In this document: positions 14,793 through 34,844 of the stretch, piece after piece
Numbering within the stretch: position 1 is the stretch's first letter
Layout of the letters: each line of letters begins with the position of its first letter
NCBI RefSeq assembly: GCF_001610975.1
Contig: NZ_CP013342.1
Location: 310,001-374,000 of the forward strand
From: Sphingopyxis terrae subsp. terrae NBRC 15098
GTDB taxonomy: Bacteria > Pseudomonadota > Alphaproteobacteria > Sphingomonadales > Sphingomonadaceae
DNA length: 64,000 bases
Direction: 5' to 3'
Position numbers and translations under genes: made by a program
The notes under the pieces: model-generated
Database searches by the model: none
What the model was told of the DNA's origin: nothing
What the model saw: only the letters and a program-made list of their open reading frames with translations

Positions 14793-15728
14793 ATGACCCG
14801 CAAAGCCAAAGCCGGAAAGGTCGGCGAAAACAGCAAGGAGAAGCGCGGCAAGCAGATCGCGGCAGCCAAGCTGCGCAAGCAAGTGGGCGACAGCAAGTCG
14901 ATCGCCGCGCCGCTGGTCGATAGCGAAGCGACGCTGGAGCGCAAACCCGAGTGGGAGCCGCGCTATCGGGGTTCTGATCGCCTGGCCGGGAAGGTCGCGA
15001 TCGTGACCGGCGGCGACAGCGGCATCGGCCGCGCGGTCTGCGCACTCTTCGCGCGCGAAGGGGCCGACATCGCCATCGTCTACAAGTCGAACACGCGCGA
15101 TGCCGAAGCGACGGCCGGGATCGTCGAGGCCGAGGGACGAACCTGCCTGACCATCAAGGCCGATGTCGGGCGGGAAGATGCTGCGGCGAAGATCGCGGAC
15201 GAGACGATCGCCAAATTCGGTCGCATCGACATATTGGTGAACGATGCCGGCGAACAGCATCCCGCCGAGGACATCCGCGACATTTCGGCCGAACAGCTCG
15301 AGCGGACCTTCGCCACCAATATATTCGGCATGTTCTATCTTGTTCAGGCGGTACTACCGCACCTGCGCGCGGGCTCGGCGATCGTCAACTGCACCAGCGT
15401 CACCATGTACCAGGGAAGCGCCGGACTGCTCGACTACAGTGCGACGAAAGGCGCGATCACCGCCTTCACCCGGTCGCTGAGCGAGAATCTCGTCGGCAAG
15501 GGCATTCGCGTGAACGCGGTCGCACCGGGGCCGATCTGGACACCGCTCAACCCGCGCGGCGGCGCGCCCGCCGAAAAGGTCGCGACGTTTGGCGAGAGCA
15601 CGCCGATGAAACGACCGGGTGAGCCCAATGAGGTCGCACCCTGTTTTCTGTTCCTCGCCTGCGAGGACAGCAGCTATATGTCGGGCCAAGTGCTTCACCC
15701 GAACGGCGGCACCATCGTCAACGGATGA
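14793..15728 (+). CDS. Short-chain dehydrogenase/reductase, stress-type (YghA/YdaD-like)
   Basis: 311 aa NAD(P)-dependent SDR. After a Lys-rich 50-residue N-terminal tail come the nucleotide-binding TGGDSGIG, the structural NDAG (NNAG in most), the catalytic YSATKG (Tyr and Lys) preceded by Ser in NCTSVTMYQG, and a C-terminal GQVLHPNGG. The length and N-terminal extension fit the general-stress SDRs YdaD/YghA. The start is the ATG at 14793; the frame opens 15 codons earlier. The substrate is unknown. Confidence 0.9.
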   Translation: MTRKAKAGKVGENSKEKRGKQIAAAKLRKQVGDSKSIAAPLVDSEATLERKPEWEPRYRGSDRLAGKVAIVTGGDSGIGRAVCALFAREGADIAIVYKSNTRDAEATAGIVEAEGRTCLTIKADVGREDAAAKIADETIAKFGRIDILVNDAGEQHPAEDIRDISAEQLERTFATNIFGMFYLVQAVLPHLRAGSAIVNCTSVTMYQGSAGLLDYSATKGAITAFTRSLSENLVGKGIRVNAVAPGPIWTPLNPRGGAPAEKVATFGESTPMKRPGEPNEVAPCFLFLACEDSSYMSGQVLHPNGGTIVNG

Positions 15729-16090
15729 GCGACCCCGCTCTGCCGAGCGCCGCCGTAGGTGGCAGTTGCCCGCCCCTCACTCAAAATATCTACACGAGCC
15801 CCCGTCACTGCGGCGGCGCGCGCAGGACAGCGGTCGGACCATGGCTGATCCAGCGCGTAGAGCCATCTGCGACCAGGCGGCTCACGCAAACAGGCGAGGC
15901 CGGTGCACGCTCTGCGGAGGGGCTGCGTCGCCTAACGCAGCCTCTTACGGACGGATGGGTCTCGGTCGCTCGGTCACCCGTTCGGACTGCAAGCAGACCG
16001 TCGCGCGCGACGCCCATGAAGCTCCCCGAGCCGGCGGGCCCGCAGGCCGGGCCGGTGAGCCAAGGGGTGCTGCACCATGGACGCCAGTGA
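15729..16090. other. Intergenic region, no gene seen
   Basis: 362 bases between the convergent SDR and DUF305 genes. Several frames are open by GC bias only. An imperfect GC hairpin (GGCGGGCCCG / CGGGCCGG) near 16033-16057 could weakly terminate either gene, but it has no T-run. Confidence 0.4.
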
Positions 16091-16681
16091 TCAGCGATCG
16101 ACCATCTTGCTCTGTGAGGGATCCCAGTCACCCGCGTTGAGGTGCCCCTCGAAGTCGGGCACTGGCCGCGCCCGAGCTTCCTCGGGGGTTGCCGCGATGC
16201 CGTGTGCCTCTATGTCGGCGATCAGCCATCTCATCTCGGAGATTTCCTTGCGCTGGGTCCGTATGATCCCGTTCGCAAGCGCGCGCACGCGCGCATCGTG
16301 GATGCGGGCCCGCTCGCTGGTCAGAATGGCGATCGAATGGTGCGGCACCATCGCGGACATATAGTCGGTGTCACCGACGGTTATCTGGCTGCGGACGAGA
16401 AAGAGCGAGCCGGCGAATACGGCCGCCGCGGCGCCGATTATGATCATATTCTTCTGCGAATTACGGTACATTGCGCGCATGAAGCCCAGCATGATCAGCG
16501 CCATTGCGGCGCCCATCACCAAGGTCATCCAGAAACGCGTCTCGCTCCACAGGACATGATCGAGCGCATAGCTATTGAGATACATGAGCCCGAACATCAC
16601 CGCGGTTGAGGTCCCCACCATCGCCATGAAGCGCAGGTAGTTGCCATTGTTCGAGCCGGCTTCATGCTGACTGTGGTTCAT
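16091..16681 (-). CDS. DUF305-domain membrane protein
   Basis: 196 aa. The N-terminal half has four hydrophobic segments (about residues 17-33, 50-68, 80-97 and region). The C-terminal extracytoplasmic DUF305 part has the signature YMSAMVPHHSIAILTSERA, and RTQRKEISEMRWLIADI. The Met/His-rich signature is often linked to copper handling. It is the third gene of a minus-strand run after MarR and DUF1398, so it may be part of the same regulated unit. Confidence 0.88.
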   Translation of the reverse strand: MNHSQHEAGSNNGNYLRFMAMVGTSTAVMFGLMYLNSYALDHVLWSETRFWMTLVMGAAMALIMLGFMRAMYRNSQKNMIIIGAAAAVFAGSLFLVRSQITVGDTDYMSAMVPHHSIAILTSERARIHDARVRALANGIIRTQRKEISEMRWLIADIEAHGIAATPEEARARPVPDFEGHLNAGDWDPSQSKMVDR

Positions 16682-21697: not shown

Positions 21698-22768
21698 TCA
21701 GATAAAGGGCTCGAAGGCTTTGAGTTCACCAGCCTTGAGGGGCAGCAGGATCCTGGCACGCATTCCCCGTCCGCCCGCCTGGTCAGACTCATAATGCACC
21801 TCGGCGCGGTGGGTACGTGCGATTGCATCGATGAGCTTTGTACCCAGCCCGGTGCCCTGCGCCGGCCCGCCGGCTGAAAAACCAGGCCCGTCATCTTCGA
21901 CGCCGAGTTCAACCATGCCATCGCCGCTCCGGCGCAGAATGATCCTCACTGCGCCGTCTTCGGCGGCCCCATAGGCATATTTGCAGGCATTGCTCACCCA
22001 TTCATTGGCGATCATTCCGAGCGCGACGGCCTTGTCGGTCGCGATCCGCAACGGCTCGGCCTCGGCGCGAACTTCGCGGTGCGCCGCGCCGGTCGACCAG
22101 CTGGCGCCGAGGTCGGCGGCGAGGCCCTCCAGATAGTCGTCCATCGCGACGAATTCGACGTCATTGCTGGTGTAGAGACGGCGGTTCACCTGCGCGACGG
22201 TTGCGATCCGCTGCTGGGTCTTCTTGAGTGCCTCGCGCGCTTCGGGATCGGGGAGTGTCTTCGCCTGGAGCGCGACGAACGACATGATCATCTGGAGATT
22301 GTTCGCGACGCGGTGATTGACTTCCGTCAGCAGCGCCTCGAGCCGCGCGTTGCTGGCCCTGAGCTCCTCCTCGGCGCGCTCGCGATCGCGGCGGAGGCTG
22401 GCGCGTTCAAGGACCTGCCCGAAGGTGCTCGCCAGCAGGTCAAAGAAATCGCTGCCTACCGATTTCACGACATAATCGTCGGCACCCGCCTTGAGCGCGG
22501 CGACCGCGACGCGGCTCTCCTCCGAACCCGTCACATAGACGATCGGCGGACAGCCCGCGACGCGGCGCAGTGCATCAAGCGTCGAGAGCCCGTCCTGCCC
22601 AGGCATGTAATGATCGACGGCGATTAGGTCGAAACGCCCTGCACGGGTCATCATGACCCCCTCGGCCCCGCTTGCTGCCAGGCTGACCTTGAACCCCTCG
22701 CGTTCGAGATTGCGCGAGACGAGGCGGCGGATGCCCTCGTCATCGTCGATATAGAGAATATGCGCCAC
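21698..22768 (-). CDS. Hybrid receiver-HWE/HisKA_2 histidine kinase
   Basis: 356 aa without membrane segments. An N-terminal receiver (DDDEG pocket, phospho-Asp52 in VDHYMPGQDG, Lys102) is followed by a coiled linker, a HisKA_2 dimerisation domain with His152 in LLTEVNHRVANNLQM, and an ATPase domain (NEWVSNACKYAYG N-box, EDDGPGF, GTGLGTKLID). Such REC-HWE kinases relay signals, often into the PhyR-NepR-EcfG general stress pathway. It is the last gene of a three-gene signalling run, 20 bases after the upstream response regulator. Confidence 0.92.
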   Translation of the reverse strand: MAHILYIDDDEGIRRLVSRNLEREGFKVSLAASGAEGVMMTRAGRFDLIAVDHYMPGQDGLSTLDALRRVAGCPPIVYVTGSEESRVAVAALKAGADDYVVKSVGSDFFDLLASTFGQVLERASLRRDRERAEEELRASNARLEALLTEVNHRVANNLQMIMSFVALQAKTLPDPEAREALKKTQQRIATVAQVNRRLYTSNDVEFVAMDDYLEGLAADLGASWSTGAAHREVRAEAEPLRIATDKAVALGMIANEWVSNACKYAYGAAEDGAVRIILRRSGDGMVELGVEDDGPGFSAGGPAQGTGLGTKLIDAIARTHRAEVHYESDQAGGRGMRARILLPLKAGELKAFEPFI

Positions 22769-22788
22769 GCTTGACTAAGCCCTTCCGG

Positions 22789-23238
22789 TCAGGCCTGGTC
22801 GGGATCGGGGACCTGGATCACCGACAGAAAGAGGCCGAGCTGGCGGATCGCATCGGCGAAATTTTCGTAATTCACGGGCTTGGTGATGTAGACATTGCAA
22901 CCCAGATCATAGCAGCGCTGGATTTCGACCTTGTCGTCGGTCGTCGTCAGTACCACGACGGGCGTCCGGCGCAGCGCACTGCCCGCGCCTTTCAGCCGTG
23001 CCAGAATATCGGTCCCGCTCATGTCGGGAAGATTGAGGTCGAGAAGGACGAGCGCCGGACCGTTGCGCGCTGGCCCTTCCGCAGCATCATAGAGAAAGTC
23101 GAGCGCCGACGTGCCGTCGGTAAAGTGATGGATGGCGTTCGAAATGCCGGCGCGGCGGATATTCTTTTCGATCAGCCGGGCATGACCTTCGTCATCCTCG
23201 ATCATCACGATATTTACGGATTGCTGTTGCTCAGGCAT
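22789..23238 (-). CDS. Rcp1-like single-domain response regulator
   Basis: 149 aa receiver: acidic pocket IEDDEGH, phospho-Asp67 in LLDLNLPDMSG, Thr98-100 and Lys120 (YITKPVNYENF). The extended C-terminus (IRQLGLFLSVIQVP) resembles the Rcp1 group that works with phytochrome-like kinases. Its start (ATG at 23238) overlaps the end of the kinase gene by 8 bases, so the two are translationally coupled and almost certainly cognate. Confidence 0.92.
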   Translation of the reverse strand: MPEQQQSVNIVMIEDDEGHARLIEKNIRRAGISNAIHHFTDGTSALDFLYDAAEGPARNGPALVLLDLNLPDMSGTDILARLKGAGSALRRTPVVVLTTTDDKVEIQRCYDLGCNVYITKPVNYENFADAIRQLGLFLSVIQVPDPDQA

Positions 23239-24733
23239 TTTCTTCTCCGCCTTTCCATTCGACCGGCAATGTGAGACGGAAAATCGATCCCTCGTCCAGC
23301 GCCGATTGCACGTCGATCGTGCCGCCAAGGCGATAGGCAAGCGCCCTGGCGTGAGCGAGACCAATGCCCTCACCGGGCTGGTCCTGTGTTCCCGACCTTC
23401 TGAAGAGGTCGAAGATGCGATCATGGTCGCGCGGGTCGATCCCGCGGCCATTGTCCTTTACCTCGACGTATGCCCGTCCATATTCGCATTGTCCGCTGAC
23501 GGCGATCACGCCGGGCCGGTCGGGCTTGAGATATTTGAGCGCATTTTCGATGAGGTTCGAGAGTATCTGTTCGACGGCGAGCCGGTCGTTGACGATCTGC
23601 GGCAAATCGCCGATTTCGAGCCGCGTCCCCGTATCCTGGATGCGATGCTCGAGGCTGTCGGCGATCGTCTTGACGACGAGCCCAAGGTCGAGCCGTTCGG
23701 GCGCCAGCGACCGCCGACCCTGGCGCGACAGATTGAGGATCGCGTTGATGAGCCGGTCCATCTTCTGGGTGGAGCTGCGGATGAAGCCGATCGCTTCGGG
23801 AAGGTCTTCCTCGATCGCGAGGCGGGTCGCGGGATCGGGCGCCTGCCAATTTCCTTCCTCGCTGCGCGCGAGATAATCGGCGATCGCCTTGCGCGCTGCT
23901 TCCAGCTCGGCGGTAAAGCCCATCACATTGACCAGCGGCGAGCGAAGGTCGTGACTGACGATATAGGCGAAGCGTTGGATCTCGGCATTGGCCCGGCTGA
24001 GCTCGGCGGTGCGCGCTTCGACAAGCTCCTCGAGGCTTTCGTTCAAATGGCGAAGCTGTTCGCGCGACAGGCGAAGGTCGACGAGATTGCGGCGAATGAG
24101 AAGAAGCGTGATCGCGGCGACCGCCAGAATGAGCAGCCCGGTGATCAGCAACGTGGTGTTGAATAGCGCCTGCGTGCGCCGCTGCTTGCTTTCGCGCTCG
24201 CGAAGCAGCGCGAGTTCGTGCGCCATCATGGCATCGACCACCCCGCGAACGTCGCGGACATAAGCGACCCCCGTATCGCTCGCAAACCCCTCGACGACCG
24301 CGCGCCGTGCCGCGATGCCGCCGCCGATCGCCTTGCGATTATAGGCGCCATAAGCGTCGATGAGCTTGCGAAGCCGCGCCACGCGCGCCACCTGCTCCGG
24401 ATTGTCCCGGATCAACGCGCCAAGTTCGCCGAGCTGTGCCCGGGCGCTCTCCTCGGCCTTGTCCATGATCGCGGCGAAGCGCGGATCGTTGGTCAACAAA
24501 AGCCCGCGTCTTGCGGTCTCCATCCGCTCATTGGCGCTCGCGAAGGCGCCAAGTCGCGCCTCGACCAGCAGCGTGTGCGAGACGCGCTGGGCAATTTCCT
24601 CATTCTGGCGCTGGGTCCAATAGGTTGCCGCGGCAGCAACGAGCAGCGCGACAAATCCGAGCGCGAGCAGCGCTACGATAGTGCGGCTTGCGCGGCGGTC
24701 GCGTCCGAGCGACGCGATCTTCTTCGATTCCAT
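23231..24733 (-). CDS. CHASE3-domain sensor histidine kinase
   Basis: 500 aa inner-membrane kinase. TM1 is at about 18-38, an all-helical CHASE3-type periplasmic domain at about 40-185, TM2 at about 192-212, then a coiled coil (LNESLEELVEARTAELSRAN), HisKA with His262 (IVSHDLRSPL) and HATPase (NLIENALKY, DNGRGI, GEGIGLAHARAL). It heads a kinase-regulator-hybrid kinase operon on the minus strand. The signal is unknown. Confidence 0.93.
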   Translation of the reverse strand: MESKKIASLGRDRRASRTIVALLALGFVALLVAAAATYWTQRQNEEIAQRVSHTLLVEARLGAFASANERMETARRGLLLTNDPRFAAIMDKAEESARAQLGELGALIRDNPEQVARVARLRKLIDAYGAYNRKAIGGGIAARRAVVEGFASDTGVAYVRDVRGVVDAMMAHELALLRERESKQRRTQALFNTTLLITGLLILAVAAITLLLIRRNLVDLRLSREQLRHLNESLEELVEARTAELSRANAEIQRFAYIVSHDLRSPLVNVMGFTAELEAARKAIADYLARSEEGNWQAPDPATRLAIEEDLPEAIGFIRSSTQKMDRLINAILNLSRQGRRSLAPERLDLGLVVKTIADSLEHRIQDTGTRLEIGDLPQIVNDRLAVEQILSNLIENALKYLKPDRPGVIAVSGQCEYGRAYVEVKDNGRGIDPRDHDRIFDLFRRSGTQDQPGEGIGLAHARALAYRLGGTIDVQSALDEGSIFRLTLPVEWKGGEENA

Positions 24734-24997: not shown

Positions 24998-25245
24998 GCC
25001 GCCATCCTTACCAGACCTAGCCGACCACACAATCGCATTGGATCCGTCTTGCCCGCCGCGATGCCGCTATTGACGAAAGCCCAATGACATCCACTGGTCG
25101 CCGTGCGGCGCTGATGATTTGCTTTTCTATATTTTAGAATGGAAGCGGCAATTTTATCTCACTGTTTAGGATGGTCGCCTCCGCGTAGATCGACTGTACC
25201 CCGAATGATCGGGATCACCGATCTTCCAGAGAAGGAGTGCCACCC

Positions 25246-25905
25246 ATGTCGATCAAAGCCACCCCGACCCCCGCCAAGGCGCTGCTGGATCCCAGCAATC
25301 ATGCGCTGGTCCTCATCGATTTCCAATCGCAGATGGCGTTCGCCACCAAGTCGATCGCACCCGAACTGCTTCGCAACAACGCGGCACTGGTCGCCAATAG
25401 CGCTGCCGGCTTCGCCGTCCCGACCATACTGACCACGGTTGCCGAGAAGAGCTTCTCGGGCCCGATGTTCAGTGAGATCACCGATGCATTTCCGGGGCAA
25501 GCGCTGTTCGATCGCACCAGCATGAACACTTGGGAAGACGCCGCCGTGATCGGCGAAGTCAATCGCATTGGCAAGGAGCGGCTCGTGTTCGCCGGCCTCT
25601 GGACCTCGGTCTGCATCGTTGGCCCCGTGCTCTCGGCGCTTGAACAGGGCTATGACGCCTATGTCATCACCGACGCGAGCGGCGATATCTCGACCGAAGC
25701 GCATGAGCGCGCCGTCGAGCGCATGGTGCAGGCCGGCGCGAAGCCGATCACCTCGCTGCAATATCTGCTCGAACTGCAGCGCGACTGGGCGCGCGCCGAA
25801 ACCTATGACCTCACGACCGGCATCGCTCGCAAATGGGGCGGCGCCTACGGCCTTGGGATCACCTATGCCAAGACGATGTTCGGCGCCTCCGAGGCCTCGA
25901 AGTGA
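25246..25905 (+). CDS. Isochorismatase-family cysteine hydrolase (YcaC-like)
   Basis: 219 aa. The fold signature is HALVLIDFQSQMAF (Asp25) and the nucleophile is Cys123 in GLWTSVCIVGP, with YVITDASGDISTEAHERAV downstream. This is the YcaC/nicotinamidase-like group; the substrate is unknown. The ATG at 25246 follows GAAGGAG. It is the first gene of a collinear seven-gene run; a LysR regulator lies at the far end. Confidence 0.92.
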   Translation: MSIKATPTPAKALLDPSNHALVLIDFQSQMAFATKSIAPELLRNNAALVANSAAGFAVPTILTTVAEKSFSGPMFSEITDAFPGQALFDRTSMNTWEDAAVIGEVNRIGKERLVFAGLWTSVCIVGPVLSALEQGYDAYVITDASGDISTEAHERAVERMVQAGAKPITSLQYLLELQRDWARAETYDLTTGIARKWGGAYGLGITYAKTMFGASEASK

Positions 25906-25973
25906 TTTCACCCGCCGGACCGGAGGGTTGTTGAATCCGGTCCACTCCATCCAAATGCTGAAGGGAATTTGTC

Positions 25974-26810
25974 ATGAGCTATGTAACCACAAAGGACGGC
26001 ACCCAAATCTTCTACAAGGACTGGGGTCCGAAGGACGCGCAGCCGATCGTCTTTCATCATGGCTGGCCGCTGTCGTCGGACGACTGGGACAACCAGATGC
26101 TCTTCTTCCTCGCCATGGGCTACCGCGTCGTGGCGCACGACCGCCGCGGTCATGGCCGGTCGCAGCAGGTGAGCGAGGGTCATGACATGGATCATTATGC
26201 GGCCGATGCAGCGGCCGTGATGGAACATCTCGACCTGCGGAACGCGGTTCATATCGGGCACTCGACGGGCGGCGGCGAAGTCGCAGCCTATGTCGCCCGC
26301 TACGGCATTCCCCAGGGCCGCGTCGCCAAGGCGGTGCTGGTATCGGCGGTGCCGCCGATCATGCTGAAGACCGACCGCTATCCCGGCGGCCTGCCGATCG
26401 AAGTGTTCGACGGAATCCGCAGCGAATTGGCGGCCAACCGGTCGAAATTCTTCCGCGACCTGCCCTCGGGCCCCTTCTACGGCTTCAACCGCGAGGGTGC
26501 GACCGTCATTCCTGCCGTAATCGACAATTGGTGGCGTCAGGGCATGATGGGCAGCGCCAAGGCGCATTATGACGGGGTCAAGGCCTTTTCGGAAACCGAC
26601 CAGACGGAAGATTTGAAGGCGATCAGCGTGCCGACCCTCGTGCTGCACGGCGACGATGATCAGGTCGTGCCGTACAAGAATGCCGGCGTACTCCAGGCCG
26701 AAATCCTGCCGAATGCGACGCTCAAGATCTACGAGGGCTTCAGCCACGGCATGCTGACGGTCAACGCCGACGTCATCAACCCCGACCTGCTGGCCTTCGT
26801 ACAGGCCTGA
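25974..26810 (+). CDS. Alpha/beta hydrolase, non-heme chloroperoxidase type
   Basis: 278 aa. The catalytic triad is visible: Ser97 in GHSTGG, Asp in [11 protein letters not shown] and His in GFSHGM. The N-terminus [20 protein letters not shown] and [15 protein letters not shown] are typical of the cofactor-free chloroperoxidase/esterase group, which also shows perhydrolase activity. It lies 68 bases after the isochorismatase gene. A role in detoxifying a small ester or peracid is inferred from context. Confidence 0.92.
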
Positions 26811-26833
26811 GGCAAATAAGGGAGAACGGACCC

Positions 26834-27082
26834 GTGAAAATCTATCTCGTCTCGCTGGGCGCCGGACTGCTCGCCGGTCTTGTCTACAGCCTGCTCGGTC
26901 TCCGTTCTCCCGCGCCTCCGGTCGTCGCGCTGGTCGGCCTCGCCGGAATCCTGCTCGGCGAACAGATCGTCCCCGTCGTAAAGCGTCTCGCCGATACCAC
27001 TGAACTGGCTCGCTTCGTCCGGGAAGATTGCACACCCCAAGTCCTCGGCGCACCGCCGCCGCGCCGCGAGCATGACGCATGA
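26834..27082 (+). CDS. XapX domain-containing membrane protein (DUF1427)
   Basis: 82 aa from a GTG at 26834 with GGGAGAACGG upstream. The pattern MKIYLVSLGAGLLAGLVYSL, LLGLRSPAPPVVALVGLAGI and LGEQIVP is XapX/DUF1427: two transmembrane helices with a Pro-rich turn. Its role is unknown, but it often accompanies the YtcJ amidohydrolase. Here it overlaps that gene by 4 bases. Confidence 0.88.
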   Translation: MKIYLVSLGAGLLAGLVYSLLGLRSPAPPVVALVGLAGILLGEQIVPVVKRLADTTELARFVREDCTPQVLGAPPPRREHDA

Positions 27083-29010
27083 ACCCGATAACCCGCCGCC
27101 AGGCGCTTGCCGGCGCCGCCACCACCGCCCTTCTCTCATCATCGGAAAGCTTCGCCATGAGCCCCAAGGATCTGATCATCGTCAACGCCAAGGTGACCAC
27201 GCTCGACAAGGGCAATCCCGTCGCCGAAGCGGTCGCGATCCGCGACGGAAAATTTCTGAGCGTCGGCGGTGAGCAGGCGGTCCGCGCCGCCGCCGGACCC
27301 GACGCAACCGTCATCGATGCCAAAGGCCGCCGTCTGATCCCGGGGCTGATCGACAGCCACATCCACGTCATCCGCGGCGGGCTCAATTATAATATGGAAC
27401 TGCGCTGGGACGGCGTGCCGAGCCTCGCCGAGGCGATCGCAATGCTGAAGCGCCAGGCGGAAAACACCCCGCCGCCGCAATGGGTGCGCGTCGTGGGCGG
27501 CTTTACCGAGCATCAGTTCGCCGAAAAGCGCCTGCCGACGCTCGACGAGATCAACGCCGCGGCGCCCGAGACGCCAGTGTTCATCCTCCACCTCTACGAC
27601 CGCGCGCTGCTTAATGCCGCCGCGCTGCGGGCGGTCGGATACACGAAAGACACGCCGAACCCGCCGGGCGGCGAAATCGTCCGCGACGCCGCGGGCAACC
27701 CGACCGGTCTGCTGCTGGCGCAGCCCAATGCGACCATCCTCTATGCGACGCTCGCCAAGGGTCCGAAGTTGCCAGAGGAGTATCAGCTCAACTCGACGAA
27801 GCACTTCATGCGCGAGCTCAATTCATTGGGGGTCACCAGCGTCATCGATGCGGGCGGCGGCTTCCAGAACTATCCCGACGATTACCAGATCATCGAAAAG
27901 CTGCATCAGGATGGCGAGATGACACTGCGCATCGCGTACAACCTCTTTACGCAAAAGCCGAAGGAGGAGCTTAAGGATTTCGCGACCTGGTCGACCCAGG
28001 TTAAACCCGGCGACGGCGACGACACTTACCGCCACAATGGCGCGGGCGAGATGCTCGTCTATTCGGCCGCCGATTTCGAGGATTTCCGCGTCGAACGCCC
28101 CGACATGCCGGCGAACATGGAAAGCGACCTCGAACCCGTCGTCCGCCTGCTCGCCGAACGCAAATGGCCTTGGCGGCTCCACGCGACCTACGACCAGACC
28201 ATCGGCCGCGCGCTCGACGTGTTCGAAAAGGTCAACAAGGATATCCCGCTTCAGGGCCTCAACTGGTTCTTCGACCATGCCGAGACGATCAGCGAGCGCA
28301 ACATCGACCGCATCGCCGCGCTCGGCGGCGGCATTGCGGTCCAGCACCGGATGATGTTCCAGGGCGAATATTTCATCGAACGCTATGGCGCCAAGGCCGC
28401 CGAAGCGACCCCGCCGATCAAGCGGATGATGGAGGCCGGAATCCCCGTCGGCGCGGGCACCGACGCGACGCGCGTTGCGAGCTACAACCCGTGGGTCTCG
28501 CTCTCGTGGCTCGTAACCGGCAAGACGCTCGGCGGTACGAACCTCTATCCCGTCCGCAATCGCCTCGACCGCGAAACCGCGCTGCGCCTGTGGACCGAAA
28601 AGAATACATGGTTCTCGAACGAGGTCGGCAAGAAGGGACAGATCAAGGCCGGCCAGCTCGCCGATCTCGCCTTGCTTTCGGATGACTATTTCAGCGTCGC
28701 CGAAAGCGAGATCGTGCATCTGCGTTCGGTGCTGACCATACTCGGCGGCAAGATCGTGCATGGCGAGGGCGATTATGGCCCGATCGCCCCCACGCTGCCC
28801 AAGCCGATGCCCGACTGGTCGCCGGTCGCGACCTTCGGCGGCTATCATCGCCGGCCCGAAGGCGCGCAGAAGATGGCATCCGCCTGCGGCTGCGCTTCGT
28901 CCTGCGCCGTCCACGGCCATGACCATGCCGCAGCGCTCGGCGCCAACACCCCCGCCGCCGACGTCCAGAGTTTCTGGGGCGCGTTCGGCTGCGGTTGCTG
29001 GGCAGTCTGA
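27079..29010 (+). CDS. YtcJ-type amidohydrolase (amidohydrolase family 3), Cys-rich tail
   Basis: 643 aa metal-dependent hydrolase. The N-terminus has NPITRRQALAGAATTALL, a Tat-like twin-Arg signal. The metal ligand pair is IDSHIHVIRGG, with later HATYDQT, FFDHAETI and GAGTDATRV giving the remaining His/Asp ligands of the TIM barrel. The C-terminus has an unusual metal-site-like extension, CGCASSCAVHGHDHA and FGCGCWAV. These proteins are predicted to be exported; natural substrates are unknown. ATGA overlap with XapX. Confidence 0.9.
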   Translation: MNPITRRQALAGAATTALLSSSESFAMSPKDLIIVNAKVTTLDKGNPVAEAVAIRDGKFLSVGGEQAVRAAAGPDATVIDAKGRRLIPGLIDSHIHVIRGGLNYNMELRWDGVPSLAEAIAMLKRQAENTPPPQWVRVVGGFTEHQFAEKRLPTLDEINAAAPETPVFILHLYDRALLNAAALRAVGYTKDTPNPPGGEIVRDAAGNPTGLLLAQPNATILYATLAKGPKLPEEYQLNSTKHFMRELNSLGVTSVIDAGGGFQNYPDDYQIIEKLHQDGEMTLRIAYNLFTQKPKEELKDFATWSTQVKPGDGDDTYRHNGAGEMLVYSAADFEDFRVERPDMPANMESDLEPVVRLLAERKWPWRLHATYDQTIGRALDVFEKVNKDIPLQGLNWFFDHAETISERNIDRIAALGGGIAVQHRMMFQGEYFIERYGAKAAEATPPIKRMMEAGIPVGAGTDATRVASYNPWVSLSWLVTGKTLGGTNLYPVRNRLDRETALRLWTEKNTWFSNEVGKKGQIKAGQLADLALLSDDYFSVAESEIVHLRSVLTILGGKIVHGEGDYGPIAPTLPKPMPDWSPVATFGGYHRRPEGAQKMASACGCASSCAVHGHDHAAALGANTPAADVQSFWGAFGCGCWAV

Positions 29011-29013
29011 TCG

Positions 29014-29424
29014 ATGAACGCGCCCGCTCCCATCGCCCGCCTGCTTGGCAAGCGCGGCTTCTCAACCCTTGCTGCAGCGCTTCTCACCTTGCCTTATTGG
29101 ACGAGCGGGATCACCAAATTATTCGATATGTCAGGCGCGCTTGGCGAGGCCCGGCATTTCGGGCTCGAACCTGCGATACTCACCGTCATCGCAACAATAT
29201 TCGTCCAGATCGGCGGTTCGCTCCTCGTCATCCTTGGCCGCCAGGCGTGGCTCGGCGCGGGCGCGCTCGGCGTATTCACCGCCGCGGCGACGCTGATCGC
29301 GCATCCCTTCTGGGAGGTCGCCGACCAAATGGCGCGCTTTCACGAGCGTAACAGCTTCCTTGAACATGTCGGACTGATCGGCGGCCTGATGCTCGCCGCG
29401 ATCCTGCGGACGCAAAAATCATGA
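29014..29424 (+). CDS. DoxX-family membrane protein
   Basis: 136 aa with four transmembrane helices. LLTLPYWTSGITKLFDMSGA and AILTVIATIFVQIGGSLLVI match DoxX, a terminal-oxidase-associated or redox-linked membrane family. It starts 3 bases after the amidohydrolase and overlaps the MFS gene by 4 bases, so it is in the same operon. Confidence 0.9.
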   Translation: MNAPAPIARLLGKRGFSTLAAALLTLPYWTSGITKLFDMSGALGEARHFGLEPAILTVIATIFVQIGGSLLVILGRQAWLGAGALGVFTAAATLIAHPFWEVADQMARFHERNSFLEHVGLIGGLMLAAILRTQKS

Positions 29425-30998
29425 CCGACACGGCTTCCCCTCCCCCGCGTCCGCTCGCAAGCCCGCTATTCCGCGCGCTGTGGATTGCCACGGTCGTCTC
29501 GAACATCGGCACCTGGATGCACGACGTCGGGGCGGGCTGGCTGATGACCTCGCTGTCGCCCGATCCGCTGATGGTCGCATTGGTGCAGGCCGCCACAACC
29601 TTTCCGATGTTCGTCCTCGCGCTTCCCGCCGGAGCGCTCGCCGACATCGTCGACCGGCGCAAGCTGCTGATGGGGGCGCAACTGTTCGGCCTAACCGGCG
29701 CGGCAATTCTGTCGGCATTGACGCTCGCGGGTCTGACCGACGCCCGGGTCCTGCTCGCCTTTACCGCCGCCATCGCGATTGGCGCGGCCTTTTCGGCGCC
29801 TGCCTTCCAGGCGATCGTCCCCGAACTCGTGCCAGGACCCGCACTGCAACAGGCGGTCGCGCTCAATTCGCTGGGCGTCAACATCGCGCGCGCGATCGGC
29901 CCCGCGCTCGGCGGCCTGATCATCGCAGCATCCGGGCCGGGCGCAGTATTCGCCGTCAATGCCCTTTCCATCCTCGGCATATTGGTGGTGCTCGCGCGCT
30001 GGCGGCGTGTCGCCCCCGATCGGCACCTGCCCGCCGAGCATATGGTGGGCGCGATGCGCGCCGGCTTGCGCTATGCGCTGCGAGCGCCCGAACTTAAGGT
30101 CGTGCTCGTCCGCTCGGTCGGCTTCTTCCTCTTCGCCAGTGGTCTCTGGGCGCTGCTGCCGATCATAGCGCGCCGCGACCTCGGGCTCGGCCCGCTTGGC
30201 TATGGCGGCCTCCTCACCTTCATGGGATTGGGCGCGATCGGCGGCGCGATGCTGATGCCAAAGCTGCGCGGCACAATGGGCGCCAATGCGATCACCCTCG
30301 CCGCCTCGATCCTGCTCGCCATCGCCATGGCGGGCTTGTCGCAGGCTGCGCAATTCGCGACCGCTGCGGCGGCGTTGTTCGTCGCGGGACTCGCATGGAT
30401 CGCAATGATGGCGTCGCTCAACGGCGGCGCGCAGGCAACGTCGCCGGGCTGGGTCAAGGCGCGCGCGCTCGCCATCTACCTGCTCATTTTCCAGGGTTCG
30501 ATGGCCGCGGGCTCGACCTTGTGGGGATCGATCGCCTCGCACATCGGCGTGCCATCGACCCTGCTTGCGTCCGCCACTTTGCTCGTTGCAGCGAGCCTGA
30601 TCCTCGCCTGGCGCTTTCCGCTCGACCGCGCGAGCGCGCTCGATCTTGCCCCTTCGTCGCATTGGCCTGCGCCACTTGTCGACGGCGCGGTCGAACATGA
30701 CAGCGGACCGGTGCTGGTGACGATCGAATATCACGTCGACCCGGCGAAGCTGTCCGACTTCTTCACCGCAATGCAGGCGATGCGCCGCATTCGCCGCCGC
30801 GACGGCGCAATCCATTGGGGTGTTTACGAGGATACCGCGGCGCCCGGCACAGTGGTGGAAACCTTCACCGTCGAAAGCTGGCTTGAACATCTGCGCCAGC
30901 ATGATCGCGTCACCAACGCCGACCGCGTGCAGCAGGACGCGCTCGCTGCCTTTCTGAACGGCGAGGCGCCAGTCGTGCGCCATTTCGTCACCCGCTGA
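29421..30998 (+). CDS. MFS exporter (MFS_3/EntS type) with C-terminal monooxygenase-like domain
   Basis: 525 aa. Residues about 15-405 form twelve transmembrane helices of the MFS_3 (enterobactin-exporter-like) family, with IGTWMHDVGAGWLMTSL and LPAGALADIVDRRKLLMGAQ. A soluble C-terminal domain (about 430-525: VTIEYHVDPAKLSDFFTAMQ, IHWGVYED) resembles an antibiotic-biosynthesis-monooxygenase-like ferredoxin fold. This fusion recurs in proteobacterial transporters. It probably exports a small aromatic or siderophore-like molecule; the substrate is not known. Confidence 0.88.
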   Translation: MTDTASPPPRPLASPLFRALWIATVVSNIGTWMHDVGAGWLMTSLSPDPLMVALVQAATTFPMFVLALPAGALADIVDRRKLLMGAQLFGLTGAAILSALTLAGLTDARVLLAFTAAIAIGAAFSAPAFQAIVPELVPGPALQQAVALNSLGVNIARAIGPALGGLIIAASGPGAVFAVNALSILGILVVLARWRRVAPDRHLPAEHMVGAMRAGLRYALRAPELKVVLVRSVGFFLFASGLWALLPIIARRDLGLGPLGYGGLLTFMGLGAIGGAMLMPKLRGTMGANAITLAASILLAIAMAGLSQAAQFATAAAALFVAGLAWIAMMASLNGGAQATSPGWVKARALAIYLLIFQGSMAAGSTLWGSIASHIGVPSTLLASATLLVAASLILAWRFPLDRASALDLAPSSHWPAPLVDGAVEHDSGPVLVTIEYHVDPAKLSDFFTAMQAMRRIRRRDGAIHWGVYEDTAAPGTVVETFTVESWLEHLRQHDRVTNADRVQQDALAAFLNGEAPVVRHFVTR

Positions 30999-32356
30999 TG
31001 CGCCACCTCCTGCTCCTCGCCGCGCTCGCGCCCGCAACGGCCTTTGCGCAATCGGTCGAGCAGACCAATTTGCGCTACGACGAGGATTGGTCGCTTCTGC
31101 GCGACGTCCCGCGCGAAGGCTGGCGGCAGCCCAAATATGTGCCGCTCGATGACACGGGCGATGCCTATCTGACCCTCGGCACCGAAGCACGGGCGCGCTT
31201 CGAGGGCTTCGGCAACAATCTGTGGGGCGATCCGCCGGCGCCCGACGATGGCTATCTCTGGCTGCGTGTCATGCCGCATGCGGATCTTCACGCCGGCCCG
31301 GCGCGCGTCTTCGTGCAGGGTATCGCCGGCTATGCACGCGGTGTCGCTGCGGGCAAGGGCCCAGCCGACGAAAGCGGGATCGACCTGTTGCAGGGTTTTG
31401 CCGACGTCCGCGTCGCACTGGGCGGCGCCGGCAAGCTGACACTGCGCGGCGGGCGTGAACTCGTTGCGCTCGGGTCAGAGCGCCTTGTCGGCATCCGCTA
31501 TGGCCCCAATATCCCGCAGGCTTTCGACGGCGTGCGCGCAATCGCGGATATTGGCCCGGTCCGCCTCGACGCATTTCATCTCCGCCCCGTGGCGATCGGT
31601 GCCGGCGATTTCGACGACCGCACGTCAACGACCCGGCGGCTCGACGGGCTTTACGTGACCGTCACGCCCGCCAAGGACATCGGGGTCGACGCCTATTGGC
31701 TGGGATATTCCAATGAAGCCGCGCGCTTTGCCAGTCGCGCCGGGCGCGAGATGCGCGACACATACGGGCTGCGCTTCTTCGGACGCCGCGGCGACCTGGG
31801 CTGGAATTGGGAAGCGATGCTGCAGCGGGGCCACTTCGCGGGCGACCGTATTCGCGCCTGGTCGCTCGCGACCGAAACCAGCTGGAGCTTTCCGCAGGCG
31901 GCCCTGAAGCCGCGCCTGCGCCTTCGCGCAAACATCGCCAGCGGCGACCGCGATGCCACGGACGACAGACTCGGCACCTTCAATGCACTATTCCCGAAGG
32001 GCAAATATTTCGGCGAACTGTCGCCGATCGGGCCGCGCAACATCATCAACCTCCATCCCAGCATCGATTTCGACCTTGGCGATGGGGCGTCGCTCGAACT
32101 CGTCGCCGCACGCTTCTGGCGCGAAAGCCGCGGCGACGGCATCTACGACATACCGGGCGGCCTCATCCGTCCCGCTGGCGGCAGCGAAGCGCGCCACATC
32201 GGCGACCAGCTGGAAATTTCGGTTGCTTGGCAAGCGACGACGCTTCTGTCCTTCGCCGCCTCGCTCTCCGCCTTTCGCCCCGGCTCTTATATCCGCGACA
32301 CGGGACCAGCCCGCACGATCCAAATGGTTGGAGCCGAGGCAATGCTGAAGCTCTAG
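30998..32356 (+). CDS. Alginate-export family outer-membrane porin
   Basis: 452 aa. A signal peptide ending AFAQ is followed by a large beta-barrel pattern (GTEARARFEGFGNNLWG, YLWLRVMPHADLHAGPARVF, LTLRGGRELVALGSERLVGI). This matches the alginate_exp family (AlgE-like barrels, here without other alginate genes). TGATG links it to the MFS gene, suggesting that the barrel is the outer-membrane partner of the exporter or supplies uptake of its substrate. Confidence 0.87.
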   Translation: MRHLLLLAALAPATAFAQSVEQTNLRYDEDWSLLRDVPREGWRQPKYVPLDDTGDAYLTLGTEARARFEGFGNNLWGDPPAPDDGYLWLRVMPHADLHAGPARVFVQGIAGYARGVAAGKGPADESGIDLLQGFADVRVALGGAGKLTLRGGRELVALGSERLVGIRYGPNIPQAFDGVRAIADIGPVRLDAFHLRPVAIGAGDFDDRTSTTRRLDGLYVTVTPAKDIGVDAYWLGYSNEAARFASRAGREMRDTYGLRFFGRRGDLGWNWEAMLQRGHFAGDRIRAWSLATETSWSFPQAALKPRLRLRANIASGDRDATDDRLGTFNALFPKGKYFGELSPIGPRNIINLHPSIDFDLGDGASLELVAARFWRESRGDGIYDIPGGLIRPAGGSEARHIGDQLEISVAWQATTLLSFAASLSAFRPGSYIRDTGPARTIQMVGAEAMLKL

Positions 32357-33282
32357 AGATCGATCATCCCGGCAAGCTCGGCGTCATCCTGTCCGAGCTC
32401 GACAAATTGTTCGAGCAGCCACAATGCCGCCGGGCCGGGCGGCGTGTCACGGCGCCAGACGCCCGCAAAGCGATAGGTCCCTCCTGGATGATCGGGCATC
32501 GCAAGCTGGATCAGCGTTCCCGTGACAAGATCGGACTCGATCATCGGCAGCGGCATATTGCCCCAGCCTATGCCTTCGCGCAGCAACGCGTGCTTGGCGC
32601 CGAGATCGGCAAGTCGCCAGGTCTTGGGACTCATCACCGAATAGTCGCGCCCCTCGGTGAACCGCGATCGGTCGGTCAGGACAAGCTGCGTATAGTCGCG
32701 TCCCGCGCCCGGCGGGATACGTTCCATCCGGCTAAGCGGGTGGTCAGGCGCGGCGACCGGGACCATTGGGATCGATCCCGCCGCTATGCATTCGACCCCC
32801 TCGACCCCGGCGGCCAGCGGCCCCGATATGCCAAGGATCGCCTTGCGATCGAGAACCATTGCGGTAATCGCCCCGAGCGCTTCGACATGAAGCCGCAGCT
32901 GCACCGTCGGGAACTCGGCCGCAAAAGCACGCAGCACCTTGCCGAGCCTTTCGGACGGCAGCATCACGTCGACCGCGAGATCGACCTCGGCCTCCAAGCC
33001 GTCGAGCATCCCCTTTACCTTGGCGCGCAGGCCATCGATACCGACGGAAATCGCGCGAACTTCCGACAACAGCGCGCGGCCCGCGACGGTGAGCTGCGGT
33101 TTGCGCGTTCCCTCGCGTTCGAAGAGCGTGAGGCCGAGCTGCGCCTCAAGATTGGAAATACCGTAGCTGATCACCGAAACCGCGCGATTGAGCTGACGAC
33201 CCGCCGCCGCGAAGCTGCCCGTGTCGACGATAGCAAGGAAGATGCGAAGCTGGTCCAGCGTCGGGGTGCCGGGATTGTTCAC
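32353..33282 (-). CDS. LysR-family transcriptional regulator
   Basis: 309 aa from a GTG at 33282 preceded by GAGGAAG. The N-terminal HTH (PTLDQLRIFLAIVDTGSFAA, LNRAVSVISYGISNLEAQLG) and substrate-binding domain (residues about 90-300) are standard. Longer upstream frames lie across the intergenic region and the pirin gene and are rejected. It converges with the porin gene (4-base overlap at the stop codons) and is divergent from the first pirin (111 bases apart). It is the likely regulator of the whole island. The ligand is unknown. Confidence 0.9.
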   Translation of the reverse strand: MNNPGTPTLDQLRIFLAIVDTGSFAAAGRQLNRAVSVISYGISNLEAQLGLTLFEREGTRKPQLTVAGRALLSEVRAISVGIDGLRAKVKGMLDGLEAEVDLAVDVMLPSERLGKVLRAFAAEFPTVQLRLHVEALGAITAMVLDRKAILGISGPLAAGVEGVECIAAGSIPMVPVAAPDHPLSRMERIPPGAGRDYTQLVLTDRSRFTEGRDYSVMSPKTWRLADLGAKHALLREGIGWGNMPLPMIESDLVTGTLIQLAMPDHPGGTYRFAGVWRRDTPPGPAALWLLEQFVELGQDDAELAGMIDL

Positions 33283-33393
33283 TTTTCCACTTCCTCGAAC
33301 AGTTCGATGCAATTTATCCCACTGAACCAAATGGCGGGCAATGTCTAAAAGCTTTTCAACGGCAGCCACCCCGGCGCGCCCTGGAGACACAAA

Positions 33394-34092
33394 ATGATCG
33401 AACTTCGCCCTTTCGACAGCCTTGGAGGCGCCAATCACGGCTGGCTCGACGCCAAGCATCATTTCTCGTTCGCGGGCTATCACGATCCCGCGCGCACCAG
33501 CTGGGGCAATTTGCGCGTCTGGAATGACGACACGATCCAGCCGCAAACCGGCTTCCCGCCGCATCCGCACCGCGACATGGAAATCATCACCTATGTCCGC
33601 GAAGGCGCGATTACGCATCAGGACAATCTCGGCAACAAGGGCCGTACCGAAGCCGGCGACGTGCAGGTCATGAGCGCCGGAACGGGTATCCGCCATTCGG
33701 AATATAATCTCGAGGACGTCACCACGAAGATCTTTCAGATCTGGATCGTTCCGACCCGCAGCGGCGAAGCGCCGCAGTGGGGCGCCAAGCCTTTCCCCAA
33801 GGGCGAACGCTCGGGCAAATTCGTCACGCTCGCCTCGGGCTACGACAATGACAATGACGCGCTGCCGATCCGCACCGACGCGCGCGTCGTCGGCGCGACA
33901 CTGCGGGCCGGCGAGACGGCCGAATATCCGCTCGGCAAGGACCGCAAGGCCTATCTCGTCCCGGCGAGTGGCGCGGTGCAGATCGACAACCTCCGCGTGA
34001 ATGCACGCGATGGAGCCGCAATCAGCGATGTGGACATATTGCGCGTAACAGCGATCGAGGACAGCGAGATCGTCCTCGTTGACGCAGCATGA
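33394..34092 (+). CDS. Pirin-family bicupin protein
   Basis: 232 aa. The N-terminal cupin carries the metal motif FPPHPHRDMEIITYV and IRHSEYN, giving the His, His, His, Glu ligands of pirin (YhhW-type quercetinase-like). The C-terminal cupin is degenerate. Pirins of this group act as iron-dependent redox sensors or quercetin dioxygenases. It starts the divergent pair opposite the LysR gene. Confidence 0.92.
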   Translation: MIELRPFDSLGGANHGWLDAKHHFSFAGYHDPARTSWGNLRVWNDDTIQPQTGFPPHPHRDMEIITYVREGAITHQDNLGNKGRTEAGDVQVMSAGTGIRHSEYNLEDVTTKIFQIWIVPTRSGEAPQWGAKPFPKGERSGKFVTLASGYDNDNDALPIRTDARVVGATLRAGETAEYPLGKDRKAYLVPASGAVQIDNLRVNARDGAAISDVDILRVTAIEDSEIVLVDAA

Positions 34093-34145
34093 CGACAGGT
34101 TGGAGCGTCGCCATCGCGGCGGCGCTCCACCCCAGGAGAAAATAG

Positions 34146-34844
34146 ATGATCCAGTTCAGGGATCGCGGCGCGCGTGGTCGTCACCAAGGCGGCCAGATCG
34201 ACGCCCATCACAGCTTCTCCTTCGCTGACTATAACGACCCAAGGCATATGGGATTCCGGGCTCTTCGCGTGCTTAACGAAGACCGCGTCGTCCCCGGCGC
34301 TGGCTTCCCCGAGCACGGCCATCAAGACATGGAGATCGTGACAATCGTCCTGAAAGGTGCCGTTGTGCATCGCGACAATCTGGGCAACAATGCGATCATT
34401 CGCGCGGGCGAGGTGCAGCGGATGAGTGCCGGCACCGGCATCCGGCATAGCGAGCGCAACCCCAGTACCGACGAACCCACCCATCTGCTCCAGATATGGA
34501 TTATTCCGGCCGAGGCTGGCGGCGCGCCTTCTTACGAACAAAGGTCGTTTGCCGACGACGGTGCGCGCAACCGCTGGGTCACGATAGCAAGCGGTGATGC
34601 GCGCGACGAATCGCTGACGCTGCGGCAGGACGCGGTGATGGACGTCGCGCGCCTTGACGACCGCCATATCCTAATGCGCTCGCTCGACCCGACACGCGGC
34701 TATTGGGTTCAAGTCGTCGCAGGAATCGTCAGCCTCAACGGAACCGAAATGCGTGAAGGCGACGGCGCCGCGGTCACTTCGGAAGACAGACTTGCGATCG
34801 AAGCGGAAACCGACGCGGAGGTGCTGCTAATCGATCTACCTTGA
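34146..34844 (+). CDS. Second pirin-family bicupin protein
   Basis: 232 aa, the same length and architecture as the preceding pirin, from which it presumably arose by ancient duplication. The ligand set is intact (FPEHGHQDMEIVTIVLKG, GIRHSERNP). Identity to the first pirin is moderate by eye. It starts 54 bases downstream, with AGGAG upstream, so the two are co-transcribed. Confidence 0.92.
   Translation: MIQFRDRGARGRHQGGQIDAHHSFSFADYNDPRHMGFRALRVLNEDRVVPGAGFPEHGHQDMEIVTIVLKGAVVHRDNLGNNAIIRAGEVQRMSAGTGIRHSERNPSTDEPTHLLQIWIIPAEAGGAPSYEQRSFADDGARNRWVTIASGDARDESLTLRQDAVMDVARLDDRHILMRSLDPTRGYWVQVVAGIVSLNGTEMREGDGAAVTSEDRLAIEAETDAEVLLIDLP

Follow-up and report, generated by a model that had tools for sequence, protein, structure and literature searches.

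A 64,000-nucleotide stretch of Sphingopyxis terrae subsp. terrae NBRC 15098 (contig NZ_CP013342.1, positions 310,001 to 374,000; hereafter the window) carries a ten-gene island in which an operon of seven genes, including those for the small protein XapX and a YtcJ-type amidohydrolase, adjoins a gene for a LysR-type regulator and two pirin genes. Judging from its sequence, the island is very probably one LysR regulon, and we consider it probable, short of firm, that this is a LysR-pirin regulon directed against quinol/quinone-type electrophiles, organized in two transcription units with its own LysR as the switch. The element CTTTTC-N9-GAA-N14-TTATC ahead of both units is new here. The features are as follows (coordinates are counted from the first nucleotide of the window).

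25122..25158, + strand: predicted LysR operator 1, exact match to CTTTTC-N9-GAA-N14-TTATC, 87 bp upstream of the isochorismatase ATG
25246..25905, + strand: isochorismatase-fold hydrolase (PF00857, 83 bits; mechanical GTG start at 25237)
25974..26810, + strand: haloperoxidase/esterase-type alpha/beta hydrolase (448 bits to 1a88 and to 1zoi; GHSTGGG aligned)
26834..27082, + strand: XapX/DUF1427 small protein (PF07235, 109 bits; TIGR03510 above cut-off)
27079..29010, + strand: YtcJ-type amidohydrolase with Tat-like N terminus, MNPITRRQALAGAAT (PF07969, 453 bits)
28882..29007, + strand: Cys/His C-terminal tail of the amidohydrolase, beyond the Pfam domain
29014..29424, + strand: DoxX-family protein (PF07681, 50 bits)
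29421..30998, + strand: MFS_3 transporter (PF05977, 613 bits, residues 11-523)
30998..32356, + strand: AlgE-type outer-membrane barrel, Alginate_exp (PF13372, 243 bits)
32353..33282, - strand: LysR-type regulator (PF03466 and PF00126)
33282..33318, + strand: predicted LysR operator 2, exact match to the same pattern, touching the LysR start codon and 75 bp upstream of pirin 1
33394..34092, + strand: pirin 1, YhhW-like (PF02678/PF17954)
34146..34844, + strand: pirin 2, YhhW-like (PF02678/PF17954)

For the LysR gene the GTG at 33282 was adopted as the start; the mechanical open reading frame (ORF) extends to 33696. A preliminary description, made from the nucleotides alone, had reported seven collinear genes, a convergent LysR gene and a divergent pirin pair, with four junctions inside or touching stop codons. 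All genes lie where they had been placed, and the junctions are as described: XapX and amidohydrolase overlap by 4 bp, DoxX and transporter by 4 bp, transporter and barrel by 1 bp, and amidohydrolase and DoxX are separated by 3 bp. The two remaining gaps measure 68 bp (isochorismatase to hydrolase) and 23 bp (hydrolase to XapX), and barrel and LysR overlap convergently by 4 bp. Pfam upholds all ten family assignments, with two adjustments of name. The "chloroperoxidase" is an alpha/beta hydrolase equally close to an esterase (1zoi) as to chloroperoxidase L (1a88), and the "porin" is better described as a barrel of the AlgE type.

A predicted LysR operator ahead of both units

The pattern consists of a T-N11-A LysR box within TTC-N9-GAA and a second element, mostly ATTTTATC, that follows with constant spacing. 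It was derived by side-by-side reading of the window and of loci from Sphingopyxis, Caulobacter and S. meliloti, and these loci do not count as independent evidence. The position of operator 1 is kept in loci L019-L021, L023 and L049 (Caulobacter) and, with one mismatch, in L024 (S. meliloti), and that of operator 2 in L019-L022 and further relatives. The genome of the island (3.98 Mb, two contigs) contains exactly two exact copies, both inside the island. At up to two mismatches it contains 29 copies versus 19 for the reversed pattern, so that only exact copies are informative. Within the window, three matches at up to two mismatches compare with 0.14 expected, and none of 100 shuffles reached three. 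A sigma-70 consensus scan placed no promoter at either predicted operator and found three elsewhere, versus 1.5 expected.

Across 199 genomes of the same family (Sphingomonadaceae), we found 23 exact copies in 19 genomes, compared with none for the reversed-pattern control. Directly downstream lies a pirin gene for 10 copies, the isochorismatase operon for 4, a haloperoxidase gene for 2, a WrbA gene for 2 and a DoxX-nitroreductase pair for 1, which makes 19 of the 23; around the remaining four, the 3-kb locus shows no labelled gene. If the two copies of the window are set aside the count becomes 17 of 21, and some of the family genomes may share a species with the loci used for derivation. Several free columns of the pattern are also conserved among the 19 sites counted as functional (T in 19, A in 17, T in 17, A in 16, C in 15 and C in 15). 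Caulobacter segnis has an extra exact operator ahead of an MFS gene within the cluster (L049:12616-12652).

Co-occurrence of the regulator and its site

LysR is more common in the family than XapX: it was detected at E ≤ 1e-70 in 68 of the 199 genomes, versus 15 for XapX, which is patchy even within the genus (one of four sampled genomes). In relatives' loci the usual neighbour of LysR is a divergent pirin, often with the site between the two genes. Functional exact sites occur in 15 of the 68 LysR-bearing genomes and in none of the 131 others. Of the 80 XapX loci described below, all six with a close LysR have a site at no more than one mismatch (five of them exact), compared with one of the other 74, on a contig that ends just after XapX. 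Genomes G193 and G084 carry the site ahead of the isochorismatase operon and LysR on a different contig, while G001, G095 and G139 possess XapX and have neither a LysR match at E ≤ 1e-70 nor an exact site. The wider occurrence of LysR, together with these two sets of genomes, suggests a scenario in which a LysR-pirin module likely gained targets, including a separately mobile XapX cluster, through operators arising upstream of them. The proposal, made in the preliminary description, of an inducible set under LysR thus gains support as a prediction from the sequence: the same predicted site precedes both units, is found nowhere else in the genome as an exact copy and co-occurs with LysR across genomes.

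Targets in relatives and proposed mechanism

The nature of the inducer may be approached through the genes that carry the site in relatives. Both site-linked WrbA proteins (NAD(P)H:quinone oxidoreductase) exceed the NCBIfam equivalog cut-off. A Flavodoxin_2 gene adjoins the pirin gene in five loci, and the one representative scanned is azoreductase-like, whereas the nitroreductase-like protein matches just a reductase model, below its cut-off. Taken together with the analogy to the YhaJ regulon of E. coli considered below, the WrbA and DoxX-nitroreductase targets and the azoreductase-like gene beside pirin lend indirect support to the earlier suggestion of an aromatic or quinone stressor. In family f44, 12 genomes yield LysRs of 25-36% identity, and in loci L260, L262, L264-L266, L268-L270, L272 and L274 a LysR about 31-34% identical to that of the island adjoins an azoreductase-like gene.

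We infer LysR binding, the inducer class, all substrates, the step of each protein and export, and the resulting scheme would be as follows. LysR would bind CTTTTC-N9-GAA-N14-TTATC upstream of the seven-gene operon and between the LysR and pirin genes; autoregulation is likely, because operator 2 touches the LysR start codon. Binding of a quinol, a quinone or a related aromatic electrophile to LysR would then activate both promoters. The pirins may oxidise the compound or open its ring, and the haloperoxidase/esterase and the isochorismatase-fold enzyme may hydrolyse the products or an acylated form. The amidohydrolase would act in the periplasm after export by the twin-arginine translocation (Tat) system, perhaps with a metal on its Cys/His tail and with XapX as a membrane-bound partner. 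DoxX would act at the membrane, and the MFS_3 transporter and the outer-membrane barrel would move residues out.

The amidohydrolase is widespread, and the cluster is also found on plasmids of symbionts and plant associates. The sphingomonad LysR offers a way into this system, since its predicted operator is precisely defined and its targets are few, several belonging to enzyme families whose chemistry is known; this makes the inducer, and hence the substrate class, testable.

The XapX core is a recurrent gene set

To define the neighbourhood of XapX we used the best 80 of at least 128 confirmed relatives, a sample that leans to close XapX proteins, with up to 10 kb per side (some loci are shortened by contig ends) and a phmmer threshold of 1e-5. 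Isochorismatase and amidohydrolase each occur in 76 of the 80 loci, haloperoxidase-type hydrolase and DoxX each in 55. An MFS gene is present in 49 loci and the barrel in 27; 24 contain a LysR homologue, close or distant, and each of the two pirins is matched in 12. The preliminary description had named scattering of the genes in relatives as the finding that would undermine it. The XapX core is not scattered, as the counts for amidohydrolase and isochorismatase show, while LysR and the pirins are, a close LysR (phmmer >400 bits) being near XapX in only 6 of 80 loci.

As controls we took 19 ORFs from the rest of the window, picked by length; nine were checked against Pfam, two of these having no family, and 22789-23451 was scanned too. 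Eleven had no match in the 80 loci, and the other eight were matched in 3 to 28 of them. The highest counts (28, 23, 19 and 17) came from two-component genes and may reflect receiver and kinase domains common to many such proteins. At 21698-24733, ending about 500 bp upstream of the first gene of the island, lie three sensor/response-regulator genes, of which one has a CHASE3 domain; near XapX in other genomes, two-component genes are likewise frequent. Reverse seeding used the 30 best-scoring amidohydrolase loci from the 47 of 398 sampled genomes of the phylum with a match at E ≤ 1e-100 (flanks of 1.5 kb, window included), and retrieved isochorismatase in 22, XapX in 17, MFS in 13, DoxX in 11 and the hydrolase in 8. 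Given the neighbourhood counts from both the XapX and the amidohydrolase side, the XapX core is a genuine recurrent gene set, grouped beyond chance.

Versions of the core are also found on plasmids. S. meliloti pSymA carries hydrolase, XapX, amidohydrolase, DoxX, MFS, metallo-hydrolase and alpha/beta hydrolase genes, and a Pantoea plasmid has XapX, amidohydrolase, DoxX, MFS, alpha/beta hydrolase and pirin genes. On the Sphingobium plasmid pBSY17_1 the XapX cluster is flanked by transposase genes (L275:1-1666 and 15052-16491) and adjoined by a winged-helix regulator gene. Searches of an open-access library turned up no paper on the cluster as a unit, and a PADLOC scan of six of the ten island proteins gave no match to anti-phage defence at 1e-5.

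An amidohydrolase with a conserved C-terminal tail

In the amidohydrolase, H94, H96, H368, H400 and D462, which we take to be the metal ligands of the PF07969 domain, are invariant among 41 homologues. The Amidohydro_3 match stops at residue 561 and is followed by about 80 residues without a domain, in which C609, H612, F632, G634, G637, C638, C640 and A642 are likewise invariant in the same set. From the 80 XapX loci we took 65 full-length homologues (length 600-720, score >500). All 65 end in the motif F[WF]Gx[LFM]GCxC[WF]A plus one residue, and 60 contain a C-x(1,2)-C-x(2,4)-C-x-[VILM]HxHxH stretch. A profile of the tail, applied to 30 of the 47 genomes, gave 32 matches in 28 of them, all at amidohydrolase coordinates. 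In the two genomes without a tail match the only YtcJ relatives, of 47% identity in G465 and 38% in G569, align no further than the region before the tail, and two more copies lack it, in G403 (47%) and in G512 (59%, match stopping at residue 614). The tail resembles a metal or thiol site. AlphaFold2 assigns a predicted local distance difference test score (pLDDT) below 50 to residues 591-631 and 633-643, so that the placement of the tail in the fold is not readable. A fold search with the amidohydrolase returned 3igh and 3icj, two uncharacterised metal-dependent hydrolases, as top matches.

The N terminus carries a twin-arginine motif (MNPITRRQALAGAAT), from which export is predicted; Tat export would be compatible with a factor being loaded into the tail beforehand. 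A selenocysteine was also considered. One TGA was flagged in each of three amidohydrolase frames (G359, G468 and G556), and this possibility is rejected because the codon falls before the amidohydrolase start, at the end of the previous reading frame. Escherichia albertii plasmids (H27, H28) contain partial amidohydrolase matches, one covering query residues 154-643 in two segments and one covering 154-480; no gene is annotated there, and the matches may be remnants. Neither the amidohydrolase nor any XapX/DUF1427 member is assigned a function in the papers found.

A more speculative proposal, to which we assign a low likelihood, is that the tailed amidohydrolase, together with XapX, constitutes a periplasmic detoxification enzyme of an undescribed kind. 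The CxC..C..HxHxH...F[WF]GxxGCxC[WF]A tail would be a metal or thiol site that is loaded in the cytoplasm, prior to Tat export, and that activity depends on, and XapX would be a membrane anchor or partner. The target might be a quinone- or amide-type toxin handled by no known family, and the module would be plugged into different sensors in different bacteria, here a LysR with exactly two operators.

Other proteins of the island

XapX passes both curated cut-offs, TIGR03510 and PF07235, and its closest relative among the matches listed is from Sphingopyxis terrae (93%). Two helices are predicted, in a weak AlphaFold2 model (pLDDT 67.6, predicted template modelling score 0.30). The isochorismatase-fold protein aligns to 1yac with LID and TSVC stretches; it does not qualify as a YcaC equivalog in NCBIfam (130 bits versus a cut-off of 310 for NF041461). 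Sequence comparison places the alpha/beta hydrolase among haloperoxidases/esterases, with a full-length match and the nucleophile elbow GHSTGGG. Both pirins appear to be of the YhhW type, with full-length matches and cupin His/Glu stretches, and E. coli YhhW is their nearest solved structure. Pirin 1 scores 177 bits to 6uts and to YhhW 1tq5 (HPHRDME and IRHSE aligned), and pirin 2 scores 209 bits to 6uts and 1tq5 and 89 bits to YhaK 2vec. The MFS_3 protein, labelled by Pfam as a transmembrane secretion effector, is presumably of the exporter type.

Weighing the readings

Several observations speak against the reading of the island as a LysR regulon for quinol/quinone-type electrophiles. As many as 53 of the 68 LysR-bearing genomes have no exact functional site, and among 40 chosen relatives' loci 29 have a site at no more than one mismatch and 11 have none. 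Seven sphingomonad stretches carry both the XapX cluster and LysR; such a site precedes isochorismatase in L210, L211, L215 and L216 but not in L213, L220 and L226. The azoreductase-like and nitroreductase-like proteins stay below NCBIfam cut-offs. Furthermore, 74 of the 80 XapX loci lack a close LysR; of the 80, 31 contain response-regulator genes that belong to a single recurrent family and 25 contain AraC genes. The core therefore need not be a quinone response. Nor is Tat export universal, since by a mechanical test the arginine pair precedes the core in 28 of the 65 amidohydrolase homologues, and three homologues of family f49 (L278-L280) begin without a signal peptide. Finally, the island LysR is 28% identical to YhaJ and only marginally closer to it than to PunR (83.2 bits for YhaJ and 81.3 for PunR in BLAST, 82.5 and 64.5 in phmmer). 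A tree of 48 sequences, weakened by long branches, puts it in its own clade of 18 (100/99), with YhaJ in a sister group of 8 together with PunR and azoreductase-linked LysRs.

Among the alternatives, a catabolic island that assimilates a plant or fungal aromatic amide or ester is conceivable, though we regard it as rather unlikely. The barrel would take the compound up, the periplasmic amidohydrolase would cut the amide, cytoplasmic hydrolases would cut the ester or lactone, and the pirins would open the ring, with the products entering central metabolism. One operon does hold three hydrolases together with the barrel, clusters with XapX and amidohydrolase lie on rhizobial and Pantoea plasmids, and DUF1427 was listed in 2005 as restricted to plant-associated Proteobacteria among the genomes then known (PMC554113). 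However, coenzyme A ligase, beta-ketoadipate enzyme and ATP-binding cassette importer are all absent among the ten island proteins, the transporter bears the Pfam label of a secretion effector, and the further genes preceded by the site in relatives encode quinone reductase and DoxX-nitroreductase.

Alternatively, the quinone link might be secondary and the island might respond to a different electrophile or to an oxidant, with isothiocyanates, peracids, hypochlorous acid and nitrosative products as examples. This we hold to be improbable. Isochorismatase-fold enzymes (SaxB) take part in isothiocyanate resistance, and haloperoxidases of this kind can produce peracids, both of which favour such a response. 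In P. fluorescens In5 confronted with a fungus, an alpha/beta hydrolase, pirins, azoreductases, a glutathionyl-hydroquinone reductase and a DoxX protein rise together (PMC5557065), but this set itself includes quinone-acting enzymes. Moreover, neither peroxiredoxin nor OsmC was seen among the 18 representatives scanned from a subset of the recurrent families. That the XapX operon and the LysR-pirin pair are unrelated neighbours that merely touch is very improbable, because, although the halves are often apart (15 versus 68 of the 199 family genomes), the same rare site precedes both with no other exact copy in the genome, and this pairing recurs in Sphingopyxis, Caulobacter and further relatives.

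Comparison with known systems

Parts of the island resemble systems described in P. aeruginosa. PA2699 is an experimentally shown Tat substrate whose signal has been lost in plant-associated pseudomonads (PMC4899797). The island amidohydrolase shares with the PA2699 group the PF07969 domain and a twin-arginine motif, and the published PA2699 signal agrees with that of the L169 homologue at 18 of 26 residues; the likeness concerns domain and N terminus, and that paper does not demonstrate a function for PA2699. Ectopic expression of the LysR protein BexR raises PA1202-1205 (hydrolase, redox protein, NADPH-dependent flavin mononucleotide (FMN) reductase and pirin) as well as the hydrolase PA2698, and the authors suggest small-molecule detoxification (PMC2796861). 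PA2698, PA2699 and PA1202 rise jointly in another data set (PMC8402870), whereas a later paper states that PA1202-1205 are up in bexR deletion mutants (PMC4051601), contradicting activation. The BexR regulon is thus comparable to the island in that a LysR raises a hydrolase, an FMN reductase with quinone reductase activity, a pirin and PA2698, numbered beside the PA2699 amidohydrolase; this likeness concerns the published regulon. Unlike the island, that regulon, as described, is spread over separate loci and extends to virulence genes, and bexR itself is bistable.

A further parallel in logic is the YhaJ regulon of E. coli (yhaK, yhhW, yqjF, ygiD and ybiJ). YhaJ responds to hydroquinone, and inducing activity lasts longer in a yhaK mutant (PMC5031710). 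Mutation of its box, TCA-N7-TGA (TCAAATTTTTTGAAGA in yqjF), lowers hydroquinone or dinitrotoluene induction of yqjF, yhaK, yhhW and others (PMC5031710, PMC11739112). Orthology of the island LysR to YhaJ is not supported, given their 28% identity and the position of YhaJ in a sister group. There are further differences: none of the YhaJ targets in the available descriptions is a XapX, amidohydrolase or isochorismatase gene, and the 12-kb yhaJ region matches the full CTTTTC/GAA/TTATC pattern only at four mismatches. Nevertheless, both systems have a LysR gene divergent from a pirin gene (yhaJ/yhaK; 32353-33282 on the minus strand and 33394-34092 on the plus strand in the island), and in both one TC-N9-GA box recurs at multiple promoters, with two exact sites in the island. 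The YhaJ targets include two pirins and a DoxX gene, yqjF, located near yhaJ/yhaK, and the island pirins are YhhW-like. By analogy, the island may work like the YhaJ regulon in its logic, as a regulon for quinol/quinone-type electrophiles.

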